From: Chloroflexota bacterium
GTDB taxonomy: Bacteria > Chloroflexota > UBA6077 > FW602-bin22 > JAMCYS01
Reading direction: 5' to 3'
DNA length: 57,101 nucleotides
Assembly: GCA_023473795.1 (NCBI GenBank)
Contig: JAMCYS010000050.1
Location: 1 to 57,101 of the forward strand
Shown: in pieces, positions 7,469 through 48,517 of the stretch
How positions within the stretch are numbered: the stretch's first letter is position 1
Layout of the letters: the number at the start of each line of letters is the position of its first letter
Notes under the pieces: generated by a model
What the model saw: the letters and a program-made list of their open reading frames with translations, nothing else
Told to the model about the DNA's origin: nothing
Database searches by the model: none
Position numbers and translations under genes: made by a program

Positions 7469-7802
7469 AGGGAAGCTGCCTGTGCCGCGGCGCCGAGTCG
7501 GACCGGCCAGCGTTCGGAGTAGCGCACTGCAGTGCGCCTGTCTGCTTGGGCACCAGGGGCGGTAACCCCCCAACCGCGAGGGCACTGGACCGCCCTACGA
7601 ACGCTGGCCCCCGAGCTTCGGCCCGCGCCTTCTGCGTCTGGCATTCAGTCGGCAGGAGTATACGAGCGGACTGAAGTCCGCACTACGAACGGGGCGACAC
7701 TGGCTTGTAGTGCGGACTTCAGTCCGCCGGCCTATCCAGCCAACCAACGGCATTCAGGTTAGGGATAACGAGCACCTGGACCAGTGAAACCGCTCTATCC
7801 CT
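7469..7802. other. Intergenic region built of REP-like inverted repeats
   Basis: Two nested inverted pairs are visible. GGCCAGCGTTCG near 7495 recurs inverted near 7607, with CTAC alongside. The family A pair at 7666-7727 is annotated separately. No gene was found. Confidence 0.5.
7666..7727. repeat. REP family A, inverted pair (BIME-like)
   Basis: Two 21-bp arms, 7666-7686 and 7707-7727, are perfect reverse complements. Each is itself a hairpin (GCGGACT/AGTCCGC) with CTAC or GTAG pointing to the 20-nt centre. Copies recur at 29038-29101 and 29153-29173, with a variant at 18947-19007. Confidence 0.8.
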
Positions 7803-20431: not shown

Positions 20432-20794
20432 CGTTGTCTCTCCTCCTCGCCGAGCACCCTACCGCGGGCGGGCTCGGCGTCTGTGCCCAGAGGGTCGAGC
20501 GGGCTCGGTCTGGAAGACGCCGCGACTGGCTCCCCTGTGCCGGCTGGGGCCCGCCGTGTCAGTCTGCCACTTGCCATCCGGCTTGTCAACGCGGCGCGCG
20601 CTTGGCTCAGCCGCCGTTGCCCGGCGCCCGGTCGGGGTCGGCGCGCCACCATGGTAGTCGAGGCGACCCCCGGTCGCAAGGGTGAAGCCGTCCGCCCGTT
20701 GGCGCCTCTCGGCGCCTTGGCTAGCGGCGCGCACGATGCGCTAGACTTAACCTGAGACCGTGTCCGGTGGCGGGACCGCCGAGAGGAGATGGAG
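20432..20794. other. Intergenic region, nothing firm
   Basis: Between divergent genes. TAGACT near 20741 could be a weak -10 for the YyaL-like gene. Open frames here have no ribosome site and no recognisable protein. Confidence 0.4.
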
Positions 20795-22303
<1,509 letters not shown>

Positions 22304-24776: not shown

Positions 24777-25823
24777 CTACCTCTCCCGGCGCAGGGCGTA
24801 GTCGGCCAGGGCCAGGAGGGAGCGGCGATAGGGCGAGTCGGGGAAGATGCTGATGCTCTCCTTAGCGGCGCGCACGAAGTCGGCGGCCGTGGCGTAGCTG
24901 TCCTCGATGGCCGGGGACTGGCGCACCAGCTGCACTGCCTGGCTGACGTTGGCCTCGCGGTCGCCGTCACCCTCCAATAGCGAGAGCAGGCGGTCGCTAA
25001 CGGCGACGCTCTGCAGCGCGTAGAGGGTGGGCAGGGTGACCGTGCCCTGGCGTAGGTCGCTGCCGACGGGCTTACCCAGCACCTTCTCGTCGCCGGTGAA
25101 GTCGAGGATATCGTCTACGATCTGGAACGCCACGCCTAGGCTGTGACCGTACTCGCGCAGGCGCGCCACGACCTCGGCCCCCTGCCCGGCTAGGATGCCC
25201 GGGCACTCCGACGCGGCGGCGAAGAGCGCGGCGGTCTTGGCATCGATCTGCCGGTAGTATTGCTCCATGCTCTGCTTGTAGTCGCCGGCGCTGAAGATCT
25301 GGCGGATCTCGCCCTTGCAGATGGTCATGGCGGCCTTGACCACCACGTCCATCACCGCCAGGTTATGGCAGCGGTTGGCGTAGTCGGCCGCGCCGGCGAA
25401 GAGGTAGTCGCCCACCAGCACCGTCACCCCCTGGCTGGCGATGGCGTTCAGCGTGGGGTTGCCACGGCGAACGAAGGCGTTGTCCAGCAGGTCGTCGTGC
25501 ACCAGCGTGGCGGTGTGGAGCAGCTCCAGCGCCACGGCCAGAGGCAGCGTCCCCGCGTCACTATCCATGGGCAGACGCGGGGACGCTGCCCCCGCGTCTG
25601 CCCATGGATAATGGCGAGAAGACGTCGAGCGCGCGCGGTCGCCGGAGATAAGGCCGGTCGTCAGGAAGGCGAGGGACGGCCGCAGTCGCTTGCCGCGACC
25701 GCGCAGGATGTGGCGCAGCAGCTCGGCGAAGATGGGATCGTCCACCTCCGCCACCCGCTCCAGCTCGACTTCCAGACCCGCCAGCTCCTCTGCCACCGGC
25801 ACGAACAACGCCCCAGCGTTCAC
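24777..25823 (-). CDS. Polyprenyl (trans-isoprenyl) diphosphate synthase
   Basis: Condenses isopentenyl diphosphate with allylic diphosphates to make the long-chain side chain of quinones. 348 aa. GKRLRPSL near residue 44, first aspartate-rich motif DDLLD (in LLHTATLVHDDLLDNAF) and second DDILDFTGDEKVLGKPVGSD. Between the N-terminal helices and LPLAVALELLHTA an extra segment of about 25-30 residues (containing SRHYPWADAG and SPRLPMDSDAGT) is encoded by a compound family C palindrome inserted in frame; it precedes the first catalytic motif and probably forms a surface loop. Third gene of metG-tatD-polyprenyl synthase. Chain length cannot be told reliably. Confidence 0.9.
   Translation of the reverse strand: MNAGALFVPVAEELAGLEVELERVAEVDDPIFAELLRHILRGRGKRLRPSLAFLTTGLISGDRARSTSSRHYPWADAGAASPRLPMDSDAGTLPLAVALELLHTATLVHDDLLDNAFVRRGNPTLNAIASQGVTVLVGDYLFAGAADYANRCHNLAVMDVVVKAAMTICKGEIRQIFSAGDYKQSMEQYYRQIDAKTAALFAAASECPGILAGQGAEVVARLREYGHSLGVAFQIVDDILDFTGDEKVLGKPVGSDLRQGTVTLPTLYALQSVAVSDRLLSLLEGDGDREANVSQAVQLVRQSPAIEDSYATAADFVRAAKESISIFPDSPYRRSLLALADYALRRER
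25547..25610. repeat. Compound family C palindrome inside the polyprenyl synthase gene
   Basis: A full 36-bp unit (25549-25584, arms GTCCCCGCG/CGCGGGGAC) is joined to a partial inverted copy. Positions 25562-25582 and 25590-25610 are 21-bp perfect reverse complements around 7 nt. The open reading frame is kept. Confidence 0.8.
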
Positions 25824-25856: not shown

Positions 25857-26702
25857 TCAGGGCAGGCTGAACAAGCGGGCGGCGTTCGCCGTAGTCGCCG
25901 CCGCGACCTCGGCCAAGCCCAGGCCGCGCAAATGGGCCAGTTTCTCCGCTACTAAGGCCGCGTTGGCCGGTTCATTGTCCCCGCGCCAATGCCAGTCGGC
26001 GGACGCGGGGACATTGCGCTTGCCTCTGAGCGGCACGGGCGTCAGGTACGGGCAGTCCGTCTCCACTAGCAGCCGCTCCAGCGGCAGCGCCGCCGCCAAG
26101 CGTTGCAGGCGGCCGGCGTTGGCGTAGGTCAAGGGCCCGGCGAACGAAATGTAGAACCCCAGCTCGATAGCCTCCCGGGCCATTCCCTCGTCGCCCGAAA
26201 AGCAGTGGAGCACGCCCCGGGCCCCCGGGTGGCCGGCCGCGAACTCGCGCAGGGCGGCCACGATCTCGGCGTGGGCCTCGCGGTCGTGCACCACCACCGG
26301 CAAGTCGAGCTCTCCCGCCAGGGCCAGCTGGGCGGCGAAGGCGGCGCGTTGGACGGGTCGCGGCGAGAGGTCGCGGTAGAAATCGAGGCCGATCTCGCCG
26401 ATGGCGACGACCTTGGGCTGCCTGGCCAGCCGCCGCAACTCGTCCAATGCCCCCGCGTCCAGCTGGCCGGCCTCGTGGGGATGGATGCCGACGGCGGCGA
26501 AAACGGCGGGATGTCGGGCGGCGGTCGCCACCGCCCGGCGGCTGGTGGCCAGATCGGTCCCCACCGTCACGATCTGCCCCACGCCGGCCGCCAGCGCCCG
26601 CTCCACCAGCACGGCGTCCTCGCCGGCGAAGGCCGGGTCCTCGAGGTGGGCGTGGCTATCGACAAGGGTGGGGGGCGCCAGCGGAACGCTCTCGGGCTGC
26701 AC
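25857..26702 (-). CDS. tatD: TatD family metal-dependent DNase
   Basis: 281 aa TIM-barrel hydrolase. Motifs: VDSHAHLEDPAF (HxH metal ligands), GEIGLDFYRDLSPRPVQ, VVVHDREAH, GVLHCFSG and LLVETDCPYLTPVPLRGKRN with the catalytic-type Asp. After RGKRN the family expects EPA; here VPASADWHWRGDN is inserted, then EPAN resumes. The insert is a family C palindrome plus a 3-bp duplication. GTG start 26702, three bases after the metG stop. metG-tatD linkage is conserved in many bacteria. Confidence 0.93.
   Translation of the reverse strand: MQPESVPLAPPTLVDSHAHLEDPAFAGEDAVLVERALAAGVGQIVTVGTDLATSRRAVATAARHPAVFAAVGIHPHEAGQLDAGALDELRRLARQPKVVAIGEIGLDFYRDLSPRPVQRAAFAAQLALAGELDLPVVVHDREAHAEIVAALREFAAGHPGARGVLHCFSGDEGMAREAIELGFYISFAGPLTYANAGRLQRLAAALPLERLLVETDCPYLTPVPLRGKRNVPASADWHWRGDNEPANAALVAEKLAHLRGLGLAEVAAATTANAARLFSLP
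25977..26012. repeat. Family C palindrome in tatD with 3-bp flanking duplication
   Basis: 36-bp element, arms GTCCCCGCG and CGCGGGGAC, flanked by ATT on both sides (plus strand). Removing element plus one ATT (39 bp) restores the normal TatD sequence KRN-EPAN. Confidence 0.85.
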
Positions 26703-26705
26703 TGG

Positions 26706-28298
26706 CTAGACGCGCTTCCCTTCTTCGTCGATGTCCCCGCGCCAATACTTATCGGCGGACGCGGGGACGATGCGCGGGAAGAGCGGCACCGGCTGGGGCG
26801 TGACCCGCGTGCCCGGCGCCAGCCGACCCCAGGCGCTGACCTCCGGCCAATTGCCGCGCACTTCCAGGGGTACCGCCAGCTGCTCGGCCATGCGCTCGGC
26901 GGTGGTCGGGATGACCGGCCAGACGAAATGCGCTATCAGGCGTAGCGATTCCGCCAGGTCGTAGAGCACGGTGCCCAGGCGAGCGCGGTCGGTCTTGTTG
27001 AGCGTCCAGGGCGCGTTCTCTTCCACGTACTTGTTGGCGCGGCCGACGAACTGCCAGATGGCTACCAGCGCCTCGTCGAAGTCGAGCGCGTTGAAGTGCT
27101 GCTCCATTGCCGCCACCGTCTGTCCGGACAGCTCGATCAGGCTTCTATCGCCGAAGTTGGTCTCCCAGTCGGCGCGCTGCGGCTCCGGCACCTGGCCGCC
27201 GAAGTAGCGATTGATCATGGACAGCGTGCGGTTGAGCAGGTTGCCCAGGTCGTTGCCTAGGTCGGCGTTGTAGCGCTGGACGAAGGTTGGCCAGGCGAAG
27301 TCGCCGTCGCGGTCGAACGGCACCTCGCGCAGCAAGTAGTAGCGCAGGGGGTCGGGGCCGAACTCGTCGGCGATGGCCCCCGGCTCCACCACGTTGCCCA
27401 ACGACTTGCTCATGCGCTCGCCCTTCTGGTAGACGAAGCCGTGGCCGAAGACGCGCTTGGGCAGGGCCACGCCCGCCGACATAAGCATCGCCGGCCAGTA
27501 GATGGCGTGGAAGCGGGTGATATCCTTGCCCACCACGTGCAGGTCGGCCGGCCAGTAGCGGGCGAACATCGCCGGGTCGTCGGCATAGCCCACGCCAGTG
27601 ATGTAGTTGAGCAGAGCGTCGAACCAGACGTAGATCACCTGGCTGGGGTCGCCCGGCACCGGTATGCCCCAGCGCATGGAAGAGCGGGAGACGGAGAAGT
27701 CCTGCAGACCGCTCTTGATGAAGTTGACGATCTCGTTGCGCCGGATCTCGGGCTCGATGAACTCGGGATGGGCCTCGATGTGGCGCAGCAGCGGCTCCTG
27801 ATAGCGCGAGAGGCGGAAGAAGTAGTTCTCCTCGTGCAGCCACTCTACCTTCTTGCCGGGGTGGTAGGGGCAACAGCCGTCCACTAGCTCCTCCTCGGCC
27901 CGGAAGGCCTCGCAGGAGGTGCAGTACCAGCCCTCGTAGGTGCCCTTGTAGATGTCGCCGTTGGCCCGCACCCGCTCGAAGAAGGCCTGGCAGGTGGCCA
28001 CGTGGCGCTCCGCGGTGGTGCGCACGAAGCCGTCGTTAGAGATGTTGAGTTTGCGCCAGACGCTCTGGATGGTATCGGCCATCTGGTTGACGTACTGCTG
28101 GGGGGGCAAGCCCAGCTCGCGCGACCGGCGTTCGGCGTTGAGGCTGTTCTCGTCCGTGCCGGTGAGAAAGTAGACGTCGTAGCCGGTCAAGCGCTTATAG
28201 CGCGCCAGGGCGTCCGTACCGATCATCTCCAACGCGTGGCCCACGTGGGGCAGGGCGTTGACGTAGATGATGGCCGTCGTCAGGTAGAACTTGTCCAT
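26706..28298 (-). CDS. metG: Methionyl-tRNA synthetase
   Basis: 530 aa from ATG 28298; the frame to 28349 is non-conserved. Class I motifs: YVNALPHVGHALEM (HIGH type) at about 14-25 and GERMSKSLGNVV (KMSKS) near 300. A zinc-knuckle insertion contains CTSCEAFRAEEELVDGCCPY. C-terminal anticodon-binding helices with NKYVEENAPW are present. There is no tRNA-binding C-terminal domain, as in the shorter MetRS class. Near the end, VPASADKYWRGD is inserted in LFPRI-DEEGKRV by a family C element. First gene of metG-tatD-polyprenyl synthase. Confidence 0.96.
   Translation of the reverse strand: MDKFYLTTAIIYVNALPHVGHALEMIGTDALARYKRLTGYDVYFLTGTDENSLNAERRSRELGLPPQQYVNQMADTIQSVWRKLNISNDGFVRTTAERHVATCQAFFERVRANGDIYKGTYEGWYCTSCEAFRAEEELVDGCCPYHPGKKVEWLHEENYFFRLSRYQEPLLRHIEAHPEFIEPEIRRNEIVNFIKSGLQDFSVSRSSMRWGIPVPGDPSQVIYVWFDALLNYITGVGYADDPAMFARYWPADLHVVGKDITRFHAIYWPAMLMSAGVALPKRVFGHGFVYQKGERMSKSLGNVVEPGAIADEFGPDPLRYYLLREVPFDRDGDFAWPTFVQRYNADLGNDLGNLLNRTLSMINRYFGGQVPEPQRADWETNFGDRSLIELSGQTVAAMEQHFNALDFDEALVAIWQFVGRANKYVEENAPWTLNKTDRARLGTVLYDLAESLRLIAHFVWPVIPTTAERMAEQLAVPLEVRGNWPEVSAWGRLAPGTRVTPQPVPLFPRIVPASADKYWRGDIDEEGKRV
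26733..26768. repeat. Family C palindrome in metG with 3-bp flanking duplication
   Basis: 36-bp element with perfect 9-bp arms, flanked by GAT on both sides. Removing 39 bp rejoins the expected MetRS C-terminus LFPRID. Confidence 0.85.
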
Positions 28299-28660
28299 GG
28301 AGAATACCGCCTCAACCGTCGCTCGCACGCTCGGGGTGCGAGGTCTCATCGCTAATCATATCTTACGGGGGCGGGCTTTGCCACAGGGGGCAAGCGAGCG
28401 TCTTGGCGCGGGCAGCGGGCGAACGTCAGTCGCCGGGCCTCGTTCTGTTGTGGAGCGCGCAGGCTTGCCTGCGCTTTCACGGGTGGCGGCAGCCCGCCGC
28501 CTGCCCTGCCAGGCTACGCGCCACAGCGGCGGCAAGCCGCCGCACTCCACACTGACCGGTTGGGCGGGTGGCAGAGAGGCAGGCTATACTGGAGTAGGGT
28601 CGGCTGCTCGGCCAACGACGTGGCCGCGGGCGCATGCCGATGGCCAGAAGGGTGACTGAG
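28299..28660. other. Intergenic region dominated by REP-like hairpins
   Basis: Divergent metG and DUF364 genes. GCGCAGGC/GCCTGCGC (28457-28474) and GCGGCGGC/GCCGCCGC (28526-28543) form two hairpins, with GTGGAG to the left of the first and CTCCAC to the right of the second, that is, an inverted pair with a GGAG-type foot. TATACT near 28588 could be a -10 for the DUF364 gene. No ORF of interest. Confidence 0.55.
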
Positions 28661-28999: not shown

Positions 29000-29037
29000 G
29001 GCGGCGGCGGTCTGTTCGGTCGGCGTATTGAGGGCAA

Positions 29038-29173
29038 GCGGACTGAAGTCCGCACTACAAGCGCGGGGCTGTCGTCGTTCGTAGTGCGGACTTCAGTCCG
29101 CTCGGCGCTCTCGGCGTCGGGATGTTGGTTAACCATGAGGCTGTCGTCGTTCGTAGTGCGGGCTTCAGTCCGC
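29038..29173. repeat. REP family A, three hairpins
   Basis: An inverted pair (29038-29058 and 29081-29101) identical in stem sequence to 7666-7727, plus a third, slightly diverged copy at 29153-29173. The copies at 29081 and 29153 are preceded by the same CTGTCGTCGTTC stretch, so the unit spread as a roughly 72-bp direct duplication. The 283-bp gap 29000-29282 contains nothing else. Confidence 0.8.
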
Positions 29174-29282
29174 TCGATCCGGTCTACCGTTCTGATACTC
29201 TGGCATCCTCCCTGCACAGCCGGTCGCTGGGCACGGCGTCCAGAAACGCCGCGGAGGGCGATCTCAAAACGGGGAGAAGCAA

Positions 29283-35559: not shown

Positions 35560-35583
35560 GTAGGGGCGAGGCTTGCCTCGCCC
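35560..35583. repeat. REP family B, left of the RAYT gene
   Basis: GTAG followed by hairpin GGGCGAGGC-TT-GCCTCGCCC. Inverted relative to the copy at 36345-36368, so the pair brackets the transposase gene. Confidence 0.8.
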
Positions 35584-35618
35584 GTAATGCCTGTACGGTG
35601 AGTTGGTAGAGGCTAACG

Positions 35619-36272
35619 ATGCCGGAAGCGCACCCAGTCAGACGCAGCCTCAGGCTGCAGGGATACGACTATCGGCAGGCAGGGGCGTACTTCGTCACCA
35701 TCTGCTCGGCGGGAAGGCAGTGCTGTTTCGGACGGATTGAGGCCGGCGAGTTGCTTCTCGCCAACTTGGGTTTGCTGGCGGAAGGGAGCTGGCGCGACTT
35801 AGCCAAGCACTGGCCCGATCTGGCCTTGGACGCCTTCGTGGTTATGCCGAACCACCTTCACGGCATCGTCTGGCTAACTGGCGGCGCTGAGAATTGGCGA
35901 GAAGCGAGAGCGCCCCGGACCAGCGGTGCCTCTCCTATTCCGCCCGAAGCACGGGCGAGGCAAGCCTCGCCCCTACCTGGAGTTGCCGACTGGCCTGTCG
36001 GGTACCAAGAGGTCCTGGAATCTGAGCTCTGGACTAAGATGGCGTCGCTAGGTTGCGGACCCCGGCTGGGCGACATCGTCGGTAGCTTCAAGGCCGCGGT
36101 CACCAGGCTGGCCAGAGCCGAGTTGGGTTGGTGTGGCGCGCCCCTCTGGCAGCGCGGGTTCTACGAGAACGTCGTCCGCGACGAGGCCGACCTTGACCGG
36201 GCGCGGCACTACATCCAAGACAACCCCTTGCGCTGGCTTCTCGACCGAGAGAACCCTGGCCGTGATCGCTGA
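35619..36272 (+). CDS. REP-associated tyrosine transposase (RAYT, IS200/Y1 family)
   Basis: 217 aa single-strand DNA endonuclease of the HUH class. N-terminus RRSLRLQGYDYRQAGAYFVTI is the RAYT signature; the HUH pair is HLH in VVMPNHLHGIVWL near residue 80. The C-terminal region contains GSFKAAVTRLA and GFYENVVRDEADLDRARHYI with candidate catalytic Tyr, then NPLRW. A 24-bp family B REP lies inside the coding sequence (35953-35976) and is translated as part of RARQASPLP in a linker where length is tolerated. Flanked by inverted REPs, the usual RAYT arrangement; presumed source of REP dispersal here. Confidence 0.9.
   Translation: MPEAHPVRRSLRLQGYDYRQAGAYFVTICSAGRQCCFGRIEAGELLLANLGLLAEGSWRDLAKHWPDLALDAFVVMPNHLHGIVWLTGGAENWREARAPRTSGASPIPPEARARQASPLPGVADWPVGYQEVLESELWTKMASLGCGPRLGDIVGSFKAAVTRLARAELGWCGAPLWQRGFYENVVRDEADLDRARHYIQDNPLRWLLDRENPGRDR
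35953..35976. repeat. REP family B inside the RAYT coding sequence
   Basis: GGGCGAGGC-AA-GCCTCGCCC-CTAC, identical to the copy at 36345-36368. The frame stays open. Confidence 0.85.
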
Positions 36273-36344
36273 CCTTCTAGGATGGCCCTAGGCCACGTGG
36301 GCCGATGCTTGTTCCGTTGGCGAGACCCTGTTCACGTTTGTTGC

Positions 36345-36391
36345 GGGCGAGGCAAGCCTCGCCCCTACGGCGAGACAAGCTTCACCCCTAC
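36345..36391. repeat. REP family B, right of the RAYT gene, plus a degenerate copy
   Basis: 36345-36368 is identical to the intragenic copy; 36369-36391 (GGCGAGACAAGCTTCACC then CCTAC) is a mutated direct repeat. The 36273-36556 gap holds only these and the groEL-side hairpin. Confidence 0.75.
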
Positions 36392-45328: not shown

Positions 45329-45364
45329 CTGTTGCCCTTTCGCGGCCTCGGAAGGCGAGTTTAG

Positions 45365-45453
45365 CCACCGAGGCACCGAGGGCACGGAGACCAGAAGAGG
45401 AATTGGCTGTAGAGACGGACATCCACCACCGAGGCACCGAGGACACGGAGACC
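45365..45453. repeat. Family D repeats (ACCGAGGCACCGAG type), two copies
   Basis: CCACCGAGGCACCGAGGGCA continuing CGGAGACC at 45365-45392, and a near-identical copy at 45426-45453. Further copies lie at 47796-47824, 47860-47879, 48428-48457 (inverted) and 48488-48517 (inverted). Confidence 0.8.
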
Positions 45454-45479
45454 GGAGGAATCTGACACAGCCCTGCCGG

Positions 45480-45634
45480 GTCACCAATCGGGATGATAAT
45501 GGCAGGCCGTCTGGTGATCTCGTAGATAATATGGAAGGGCTGACATCCTTGCTGTAGACACGCGGGTTAACGAGGGGTAACCTCGTCCTATCCGCAAACA
45601 GCCGAGGAGAATAAGTCTCGAGGAGGTCAGCCCA
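45480..45634 (+). mobile_element. IS110-type left-end non-coding region
   Basis: 155 bp without an ORF directly upstream of the IS110 gene, containing GGGTTAACGAGGGGTAACC. IS110-group elements encode a bridge RNA in this position. The boundaries of the element are not determined. Confidence 0.45.
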
Positions 45635-46483
45635 GTGTCTATTATCTACGGTGGTCTCGACGTGCACAAGGGGTCCATTAGCGCCTGCCTTCTGGATTCA
45701 CGTACCGGGGAGATGATTGCCCAGGAGGTGCCCAACGACCAACCACACGTGCCGCGTGCTGCCCGGCGCTGGGCCAAACTTGGCGAACTGTGCCTCTGCT
45801 ACGAGGCCTCGGGCGCCGGCTTCGTCATCCAACGCTGGCTGAAGGGGATCGGCGTGCACTGCGAGGTGATCGCTCCTTCCCTCATCCCCAAGGCGCCTGG
45901 TGATCGGGTCAAGACTGACAAGCGCGACGCCCGCAAACTGGCCAAGCTCTATGCGGCGGGTCTGCCGCAACCGGTACGTGTGCCAGGGGAGGAAGAGGAG
46001 ACCGTACGTGCTCTGGTACGGCTGCGGGGACAACTCACGGTCGATAGCACGCGCGTCAAGAACCGCGTCCACAAGTACCCGCGGCTGCTTGGGCACGTCT
46101 ATCCAGAGAGAAGCCATTGGAACGTGAAGCATCGGGATTGGCTGGCCCATCTGCCTTTGGACACCATCCCGCGCTTGATCGTGCGGACCCACCTCGACGA
46201 GTTGGATGCTCTGCTTAGTCGCCGCGGGGAGATTGAGCGGTGGATAGAGGAGATCGCCCGCTGTGAGCCATATCGGCAGGGGGTAGACAGGCTCATGAGT
46301 CTGCGGGGGATAGGCACGCACACGGCGATGGTGCTCTTGACCGAGATCGGTGATGCCCGGCGGTTTGGCAGTGCGCCGCAACTGATGGCCTACCTGGGGC
46401 TGGTGCTGCGGGAGGACGAGGCATGCCTCGTCCGCGGACGGGCCATGGCCCGTCCCTACGAAATACGCTCATCTAGCTGGTAG
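45635..46483 (+). pseudogene. IS110 family transposase, 3'-truncated by REP palindromes
   Basis: GTG 45635 with AGGAGG upstream. N-terminal DEDD RuvC-like domain: IIYGGLDVHKGSISACLLD, LCYEASGAGF and VKTDKRDARKLAKLY. The C-terminal transposase_20 domain begins (VDRLMSLRGIGTHTAMVLLTEIG, then LMAYLGLV) but stops short: after LGLV the frame reads through palindromes 46414-46459 (LREDEACLVRGRAMARPYE) and ends. The conserved Ser-containing end is lost; about 60-90 residues are missing. Probably inactive. Confidence 0.85.
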
Positions 46484-46507
46484 GGGCGACCGGCCGGTCG
46501 CCCCTAC
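46414..46507. repeat. Three REP family B-type palindromes at the IS110 3' end
   Basis: GGACGAGGC-AT-GCCTCGTCC (46414-46433), GGACGGGCC-AT-GGCCCGTCC plus CTAC (46436-46459), and a perfect 28-bp palindrome with GTAG/CTAC ends (46480-46507). Confidence 0.8.
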
Positions 46508-46529
46508 GGATGCTGATTACCGAAAGACT

Positions 46530-47795
46530 ATGGACAAAGCGCAACCCGGGGTCGGCAACCTGACCAAGGTTCTCTTCGTGGCGAGCACGTTCGTCTTCTG
46601 GTGCTCGCTGTACGTCTACGTGCCCATTCTCCCCACCTACACGCAACAGCTCGGCGGCTCGCTGGCGATGGTGGGGCTGGTGGTGGGGGCCTACGGCGTC
46701 ACTCAGTTCGTCCTGCGGGTGCCGTTGGGCGTCTTCTCCGACCGCCTGGGCCGGCGCAAGCCGTTCATCCTCTTCGGCACGCTGACGGCGGCGGCGGGCG
46801 CGGCGGGCTTTCTGGTGGCCGGCGACCCCTGGGGCCTATTCCTGGCTCGCGCCCTCACCGGCGTGGCCGCCTCCAGTTGGGTGGCCTTCACCGTCCTCTT
46901 CTCCTCCTACTTCCCGCCCGGCAAGGCGGTGCGGGCCATGAGCCTGGTGACCTTCGTCTCCGGCAGCTCGCAGCTGGTGGCGACCTTCGCCGGGGGGCAG
47001 ATCGCCCAGCGCTTCGGCTCCGTCTCCACTTTTTGGGTCGGCCTGGCGCTGGCCGGCGTGGCCGCGCTGGCCAGCCTAGCGGTGCGCGACGAGCCACGCC
47101 GGACGACGGCCCCGCCGAGCTGGGAGCAGGTGGCGCGGGTGATGACCGGGTCCCCGCGCCAATACCAATCGACGGCCGCGGGGGCCGTGTCCCCGCGTCA
47201 ATACCAATCGGCGGTCGCGGGGGCCGTGCCGCTGCTGCTGATCGTCTCCTTCAACGCCGTGCTCAGCCAGTACGCGGCCTACGTCACGACCTACGCCTTC
47301 ACGCCCATCTACGCCGCGGGTCTGGGGGCTAGCCGGGCCGACCTGGGTCTGCTGGTGACGGCGATGCTTATCTCCTCGACCATCGGTCAGCTGCTGGCCG
47401 GGAACCTCGTGGAGCGTTGGGGGGAGCGGGTGGTGGTGGCGGGGGGGATGCTGATCGCCGCCACGGGCATCGCCGCCACGCCCTTCGTGGCCACGGTGCC
47501 GCTGCTGCTGGGGCTGCAGGCGCTCAACGGTCTGGGCAGGGGGCTGGGCTTCCCGGTGCTGATGGGGTTGAGCGTGCGCTACCTGCCCCAGCAGCAGCGG
47601 GCGACGGCGATGGGCGTCTTCCAGGCCACCTACGCCCTGGGCATGTTCGCCGGGCCCTTCGCTGGCGGCCAGATCGCCGACGCCTTTGGCCTCGACATGG
47701 TCTTCTACTCCACCGGCGTCGTCTGCCTCGCCTCCGCCGGCCTCGCCCTCCTCATCCCAGGCCGCAGGGCGACGAGAGCTCGGAACGAGGATTGA
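46530..47795 (+). CDS. MFS transporter with tandem in-frame palindromic insert
   Basis: 421 aa, 12 membrane helices. Motif A variant GVFSDRLGRRKPFIL after helix 2; LARALTGVAASSWVAF helix 4; a matching second half with WGERVVVAGGML. The central cytosolic loop holds two 13-residue repeats, SPRQYQSTAAGAV and SPRQYQSAVAGAV, encoded by family C palindromes. The loop between helices 6 and 7 tolerates such additions, so activity may be kept. Exports or imports an unknown small molecule. The stop codon is followed at once by a family D repeat. Confidence 0.9.
   Translation: MDKAQPGVGNLTKVLFVASTFVFWCSLYVYVPILPTYTQQLGGSLAMVGLVVGAYGVTQFVLRVPLGVFSDRLGRRKPFILFGTLTAAAGAAGFLVAGDPWGLFLARALTGVAASSWVAFTVLFSSYFPPGKAVRAMSLVTFVSGSSQLVATFAGGQIAQRFGSVSTFWVGLALAGVAALASLAVRDEPRRTTAPPSWEQVARVMTGSPRQYQSTAAGAVSPRQYQSAVAGAVPLLLIVSFNAVLSQYAAYVTTYAFTPIYAAGLGASRADLGLLVTAMLISSTIGQLLAGNLVERWGERVVVAGGMLIAATGIAATPFVATVPLLLGLQALNGLGRGLGFPVLMGLSVRYLPQQQRATAMGVFQATYALGMFAGPFAGGQIADAFGLDMVFYSTGVVCLASAGLALLIPGRRATRARNED
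47150..47224. repeat. Two tandem family C palindromes inside the MFS gene
   Basis: Units 47150-47185 and 47189-47224 are 36 bp each, 39-bp period, both followed by CGT. Arms are GTCCCCGCG and CGCGGGGGC (one mismatch). Confidence 0.85.
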
Positions 47796-47879
47796 ACCAC
47801 CGAGGCACCGAGGGCACCGAGACCTGAGCCAGTAGTTGAGGAGATGGGTCGAGTCTGTAACCACCGAGGCACCGAGACC
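47796..47879. repeat. Family D repeats between MFS and GxxExxY genes
   Basis: ACCACCGAGGCACCGAGGGC continuing ACCGAGACC (47796-47824), starting directly after the MFS stop, and a shorter copy at 47860-47879. Confidence 0.75.
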
Positions 47880-47962
47880 TGACAGAAGAGAGGCAGAGAC
47901 GAGCACGGTGGACCAAGAGGGAAGGCGAGGCGAAGAAGCGCGTTCAGACCGACGGTAAAAGC

Positions 47963-48469
47963 CTAGAGCACCTTACGCCGGAGGCCGTGCTTCAGAATTG
48001 CCTCGTTGAAATTGATCAGCAGCCCGACCTTGCAACCGGTGATCTTCAGATAGGTCAGCAACTGCGCCTCGTGGATGGGATGCAGAGCATCAACTGCCTT
48101 CAACTCCACCACCACTCGACCGCCTACTACGAAATCAAGCCGATAGCCGCAATCCAGACGCACGCCTTTGTACTCGGCGGGCAGCGGAACCTCCTGCTCG
48201 AAAGGCAAGTCCCTCAATTCAAGTTCGCGCGCCAGGCAGGTCTGGTAGACACCCTCCAGCAGCCCTGGACCTAGCTGGCGGTGCGCCTCGATAGCGGCGC
48301 CAATCACCTCCGCGGTCAGGCCGTGCTCCGGTGCCGACGCATAGTGCCCCGATACGTCTAGTCGCGCTTCGCCAGTCAAATCAGCTTTCTCCCCCTCTTG
48401 CACAGTCCCACTCTCTTTCTCACTTCTGGTCTCGGTGCCCTCGGTGTCTCGGTGGTTACATTCTCCCAC
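47963..48469 (-). CDS. GxxExxY protein (PD-(D/E)XK nuclease-like)
   Basis: 168 aa as drawn; the true start is probably later because residues 3-13 (ECNHRDTEGTE) are a translated family D repeat. Core: GLTAEVIGAAIEAHRQLGPGLLEGVYQ with the naming motif G-LL-E-GV-Y, then YKGVRLDCGYRLDFVVGGRVVVELKAVDAL (nuclease-like E-x-K) and HEAQLLTYLKITGCKVGLLINFN. This family is common next to such repeats. Biochemical role unknown. Confidence 0.85.
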   Translation of the reverse strand: MGECNHRDTEGTETRSEKESGTVQEGEKADLTGEARLDVSGHYASAPEHGLTAEVIGAAIEAHRQLGPGLLEGVYQTCLARELELRDLPFEQEVPLPAEYKGVRLDCGYRLDFVVGGRVVVELKAVDALHPIHEAQLLTYLKITGCKVGLLINFNEAILKHGLRRKVL

Positions 48470-48517
48470 TGCTCTCTCGCCTCCTCCGGTCTCAGTGTTC
48501 TCGGTGTCTCGGTGGTT
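48428..48517. repeat. Family D repeats, inverted orientation
   Basis: Copies at 48428-48457 and 48488-48517 read CTCGGTGTCTCGGTGGTT, opposite to the copies at 47796 and 45365. Together they bracket the GxxExxY gene; the last one overlaps the PHP-gene stop codon. Confidence 0.75.

Follow-up and report, generated by a model that had tools for sequence, protein, structure and literature searches.

How palindromic sequences that lie within protein-coding genes move, the Rickettsia elements among them, has long been an open question, because their ends and targets are ill-defined. RPE units (Ogata et al., cited in PMC2229807) are in-frame insertions of 105-146 bp, with their target duplication marked as unknown. 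REPs carrying GTAG/CGTC tags are found inside ORFs in many species, including some in tRNA synthetases (PMC3733652), and neither 'target site' nor 'duplication' occurs for REPs in that paper. Yeast mitochondria harbor mobile G+C clusters ('GC clusters') that are associated with AG or ACT repeats (PMC4478555).

The palindrome family described here works like RPEs, REPs and GC clusters, but without the tags of REPs and the size of RPEs. As is the case for RPEs and the coding palindromes of Wolbachia, its copies lie in frame within conserved protein genes and also between genes, and no transposase is known. In contrast to RPEs (105-146 bp), the palindrome is 36 bp long and adds 39 bp, and it has neither the size nor the sequence of an RPE, while a C-NNY-G insertion site and a flank rule can be defined; moreover, its host genome (4.4 Mb, ∼66% G+C) contrasts with the small genomes of Rickettsia. 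With REPs, the palindrome shares its size (20-40 bp), a hairpin, dozens of copies, some intra-ORF locations, clusters and dimers, but it has no unpaired GTAG/CGTC tag or CCA tail (its ends are paired GTC/GAC within the stem), its copies are no less frequent within genes than between them, and its flanks follow C-NNY-G and are often duplicated, a kind of flank on which PMC3733652 is silent. The original prediction named Rickettsia as the nearest precedent, which is apt but incomplete, as intragenic REPs occur in many bacteria too (PMC3733652). Unlike the mitochondrial GC clusters of yeast, the palindrome is bacterial, differs in sequence, and has many coding insertions.

The window (the whole 57,101-nt stretch of DNA analysed) had been predicted to contain palindromes in two housekeeping genes, and both are present at exactly the predicted positions, with perfect 9-bp arms. 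One, at 25977-26012 (+), lies in tatD (25857-26702, -), which encodes a TatD-family DNase; it has the core CCAATGCCAGTCGGCGGA (the opposite strand reads VPASADWHWRGD) and ATT on both sides, or, with one further base, the target copies CATTG (C-NNT-G) at 25973-25977 (+) and 26012-26016 (+). The other, at 26733-26768 (+), lies near the C-terminal end of metG (26706-28349, -), encoding methionyl-tRNA synthetase (MetRS), with the core CCAATACTTATCGGCGGA (opposite strand, VPASADKYWRGD), GAT on both sides, and target copies CGATG at 26729-26733 (+) and 26768-26772 (+). Both copies are read in frame, as had been claimed, yielding KRN-VPASADWHWRGDN-EPAN in TatD and LFPRI-VPASADKYWRGDI-DEEGKRV in MetRS.

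Five more copies were identified in the window, at 22172, 25549, 25588, 47150 and 47189. A polyprenyl synthetase gene (24777-25823, -) contains an inverted dimer, comprising a copy with perfect arms (25549-25584, +) and, 39 bp on, an inverted, partly decayed second copy (25588-25623, -); the dimer is in frame (TSSRHYPWADAGAASPRLPMDSDAGT) within a single Pfam domain. In an MFS transporter gene (46530-47795, +), a tandem pair with a 39-bp period (47150-47185, +, SPRQYQSTAAGAV; 47189-47224, +, SPRQYQSAVAGAV) supplies 26 extra residues between the two halves of the protein. The remaining copy (22172-22207, -), with the core CCATTCGGACTCTAAGGA, lies near the C-terminal end of a gene encoding a DUF255/thioredoxin-domain (Thioredox_DsbH) protein (20789-22303, +). 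The window also harbors other repeats, including several ACCACCGAGGCACCGAGGNCACGGAGA repeats in both orientations at 45354-48517, around a short IS110-like transposase frame (45635-46483), and several copies of another dispersed palindrome, GTAGTGCGGACTTCAGTCCGC, at 7663-7732 and 29033-29176.

A small mobile element had been proposed, and searching the genome (4.44 Mb in 170 contigs; 96% complete; ∼66% G+C) with mismatches and with a covariance model identified ∼60 copies. These occupy 45 loci that are spread over more than 25 contigs in unrelated surroundings, and 34 of the 45 loci are single copies. Each copy consists of a 9-bp arm (GTCCCCGCG), an 18-nt core, and a second 9-bp arm (CGCGGGGAC), and adds 39 bp of DNA. 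The exact arm pair occurs three times in the window (0 in each of 100 shuffles) and 23 times per strand genome-wide (none for the backwards control). With three mismatches allowed, the control gave 31 hits, and therefore only copies with at most two mismatches, or with a matching core, were accepted. The cores form related subfamilies, such as CCAATACCAATCGGCGGA and CCATTCGCGATCTAAGGA, that differ in sequence, so the palindrome has an orientation. Folding, which the original prediction had suggested, gives a DNA hairpin whose 11-bp stem has a single unpaired base next to it (z-scores -3.2 to -4.3). Covariation of the arms showed no excess over shuffles across copies, and is uninformative because the arms hardly vary. 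Comparison with known RNA families returned weak chance matches only, far below gathering scores and mostly on the inverted dimer. One copy (L030:2878) is exactly central in a further 21-bp inverted repeat, forming a 78-bp palindrome (L030:2857-2934), and a longer intergenic repeat (GTCGCCCGGC..GCCGGGCTGAAGAAACGAAGCCGTCTGA..; L024:1548-1700, L034:1400-1580, L029:1535-1710 and L079:745-880) directly adjoins a copy of the palindrome at three places.

Homologues of the interrupted proteins lack the corresponding residues, in comparisons made with homologues rather than strains (the host family is represented by one genome in the collection). Between RGKRN and EPA, TatD homologues of known structure are shorter by exactly 13 residues, in agreement with the predicted 13-residue addition; in MetRS, 8-9 residues separate the copy from the stop codon, and the site is beyond the well-aligned region. 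In serine hydroxymethyltransferase (SHMT), two tandem 13-residue units (26 residues) give GDT-(APASADWYRRGDT)x2-VL, where aligned structures read GDT-VL; a second SHMT-like sequence in the genome (C149:10810-12066, L141; 53-59% identical) matches query residues 46-107 and 128-401, and since these matches touch each other in the C149 sequence, it too is without the insert. The gene encoding oligoendopeptidase F (PepF; G000:C34:5147-7030, L022) contains three separate copies, the second and third of which face gaps of 11-13 residues in relatives, the third a gap of exactly 13 in relatives of the same class; 3-hydroxyisobutyrate dehydrogenase (HIBADH) likewise faces a gap of exactly 13 residues in same-class relatives, and the homologue set of a glycosyltransferase is also without the inserted stretch. 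Inserts are spanned by Pfam domains for polyprenyl synthetase, TatD, prephenate dehydratase, PPDK, NAD-binding, glycosyltransferase 2 and CrtC. Homologues without exactly these residues argue that the palindrome is very probably a mobile, protein-coding element that enters genes in frame.

Codon statistics place 18 of the 45 loci inside coding sequence, with the same frame on both sides, and five at the 3' ends of genes (TrpC, AroE, TyrA, MetG and one more); the others comprise three probable coding loci, seven start regions, 11 non-coding loci and one unscored locus. In contig G000:C51, junctions between trp genes carry a copy at the trpA start and a tandem pair at the trpC end (L026:1333 and 3472). 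Coding copies mostly use the frames VPA...RGD and SPR...DAGT. The original prediction held that the sequence is free of stop codons in the frames used; one subfamily is indeed open in every frame, but others have stops in some frames, and where these occur inside genes they are found in their open frames. As a multiple of three, 39 bp preserves the reading frame, and every copy has some open frames, which allows insertions to survive as 13-residue additions; the frame-neutral 39-bp step, anticipated in the same prediction along with in-frame copies in conserved genes, lets the element live in genes whose homologues are without these residues. Copy lengths that would break the phase were found only between genes, although the numbers are small: 37-bp variants at three loci, all non-coding, and a 35-bp pair (L079, 1728 and 2019) between genes.

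The flanks are strongly constrained. A C is present at position -4 of the 36-mer in 41 of 45 loci and a G at +4 in 42 (p < 1e-20), with a pyrimidine immediately before the element in 44, which defines C-NN(T/C)-G as the insertion site on either side. With C and G almost invariant across the loci, a 34-bp core between 5-bp direct repeats (CATTG, CGATG) is the better description. Left and right trinucleotides within this site agree at 16 of 45 loci, where permutation predicts 2.7 (p = 5e-5), and at 11 of the 34 single-copy loci, against 1.8 expected. The proposed 3-bp target duplication thus holds well above chance at 16 loci, tatD and metG included, but is not general; the 29 loci with unequal trinucleotides rule it out as a simple rule for all copies. 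Decay of former duplications is ruled out in turn by near-perfect arms and intact outer bases: C is kept at 26 and G at 27 of these 29 loci, and at the 18 single-copy loci that differ in at least two of the three letters, the arms average 0.56 mismatches per 18 positions and 10 are perfect. As the unequal loci keep arms, C and G, the difference between trinucleotides arose at insertion, not by mutation.

Two genes allow the flanks to be assigned. In HIBADH (C11:157), the closest same-order relatives read GSV-LVDMSTIDP, into which the left codon AGC (S) fits, so that AGC would be native and GCC on the right foreign. In PepF (C34:6082), relatives read KAK-LLGL; the right GCT would be native, in agreement with L, and the left TTT, which would give F, foreign. 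Together with the statistics above, these two well-resolved genes suggest that the element often imports a trinucleotide. At conserved positions with equal flanks (TatD N, SHMT T), the native codon is present on both sides, and the target was therefore duplicated there. A consistent side for the foreign trinucleotide was also sought; near-symmetric cores are ambiguous in orientation, and neither the ABC ATPase nor the glycosyltransferase site settled which flank is native.

Tn916 and CTnDOT are large elements with their own integrase, in which one flank is native and one element-borne, with an overlap of 5-7 nt. The HIBADH and PepF loci may resemble them in having one native and one seemingly element-borne flank between short fixed bases, although the palindrome is 39 bp and has no integrase of its own. 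The family very probably consists of very small, non-autonomous mobile palindromes, which would have spread within the lineage via an enzyme acting in trans. For its action we tentatively propose a strand-exchange model across C-NNN-G as a possible account. This enzyme would join the element to its target across the 5-nt C-NNN-G, and during joining the target trinucleotide would compete with one brought by the element; the outcome of repair or replication would then be duplication of the target trinucleotide at about one third of loci, and a native trinucleotide on one side with a foreign one on the other at about two thirds. The exchange may resemble the coupling-sequence exchange of Tn916/CTnDOT or hairpin-based single-strand transposition. 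Coupling-sequence exchange followed by repair would explain equal and unequal loci alike; a candidate enzyme was not found, and no transposase or recombinase lies beside the inspected copies.

An unlikely alternative is that a REP-type palindrome moves as single-stranded DNA by means of an HUH transposase (RAYT or IS200-IS605 type), inserting beside a CNNN cleavage site and carrying its own second CNNN site. The hairpin with an unpaired base beside its stem is in keeping with such a transposase, and the unequal flanks, both of them CNNN sites, would follow from peel-and-paste insertion. Fixed cleavage sites and insertion without target duplication, as in IS200/IS605, fit 29 of the 45 loci but not the other 16. 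The arrangement predicts unequal flanks generally, yet equal flanks are enriched sixfold. RAYT-type genes are present in the genome, including one in the window (35619-36272, +), but this gene has its own, different repeats (GTAGGGGCGAGGC type), the GTAG or CGTC tag is absent from the palindrome, and a hairpin scan of the RAYT loci of the genome revealed no copy of it. Peel-and-paste insertion explains the unequal loci only. Among the Y1-type genes examined, the arrangement expected of GTAG REPs, a cognate RAYT flanked by the repeat, was not found for the palindrome, and with no link between RAYT genes and the palindrome, proximity does not support a RAYT as mobiliser. The GTAG-type repeats of the window RAYT-like gene (CGGGCGAGGCAAGCCTCGCCCCTAC), at 35563-35587, 35952-35976 and 36344-36391, are unrelated in sequence to the palindrome, and three more Y1-type genes are located elsewhere in the genome.

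It is decidedly unlikely that the palindrome is a miniature inverted-repeat transposon (MITE) mobilized by an ordinary DDE transposase that duplicates a 5-bp target (CNNNG), the unequal loci being old or rearranged. Speaking for it are the direct repeats at 16 of 45 loci, far more than chance would give, the terminal inverted repeats (the 9-bp arms) and a weakly palindromic target. However, the unequal loci have near-perfect arms and retain C and G while two or three of the three letters differ, which argues against both decay and an origin by duplication; rearrangement between loci should have disrupted genes that in fact read through both sides; and 34-36 bp is far below the usual size of a MITE. 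No longer element with the same ends was found at half-sites in the 0.5 Mb searched or beside the inspected copies. A target duplication of constant length at most insertions, as expected of MITEs, was not observed (16 of 45 equal), and a DDE-mobilized MITE explains the equal loci only.

The family appears confined to its host among the genomes searched: a search of 28 further genomes from its class gave nothing at E ≤ 0.001, exact arms occurred at most once in any other genome of a set of 300 from the phylum, and plasmids, phages and viral contigs searched did not contain it. Across 84,980 species genomes, nine look-alike palindromes turned up (in Streptomyces, Micromonospora and others), but their cores are unrelated and their flanks lack the C-NNN-G repeat. 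Contamination by a foreign set of contigs was rejected, as element-bearing stretches match the tetranucleotide profile of the genome, the window best of all. It is very improbable that the palindrome is a DNA motif serving the host (e.g. in recombination, packaging or regulation), with selection acting on its positions: the arms are strongly conserved across copies, but the motif is absent from 28 of 28 other genomes of the class, lies inside unrelated enzyme genes, and has direct repeats at a third of its loci. The palindrome is most likely without benefit to its host.

Arrays of 2-4 units have a period of 39 bp (in one case 40, non-coding), and in an FtsX-type permease four tandem units contribute 52 residues. 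Neighboring cores are identical at 16-18 of 18 positions in most arrays, and arrays therefore look like local duplications of the 39-bp unit, which is probably how they mainly arise. That the element is not mobile at all, and consists of minisatellite-like 39-bp units expanding locally inside genes, is hardly credible: identical cores at a 39-bp period in arrays of 2-4 units would be so explained, but these alone, and the reading is contradicted by dispersal, with 34 of 45 loci single, more than 25 contigs, unrelated surroundings, and homologues precisely without the units.

This family offers a small, countable case of mobile DNA living inside proteins. The length of the unit, its target (C-NNY-G), the rule for its flanks and its empty sites can all be read off here, making movement testable. 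Its insertions affect well-studied enzymes (SHMT, TatD, PepF, HIBADH, PPDK and prephenate dehydratase), and thus provide a natural set of 13-residue insertions tolerated by presumably working enzymes. A bolder reading, which we regard as somewhat unlikely, is that mobility of a new kind is at work, with the 39-nt hairpin as the entire mobile unit and with strand exchange at C-NNN-G importing a foreign codon; if true, each insertion would add 13 residues to a working enzyme, including one carried over from the site that the element occupied before.
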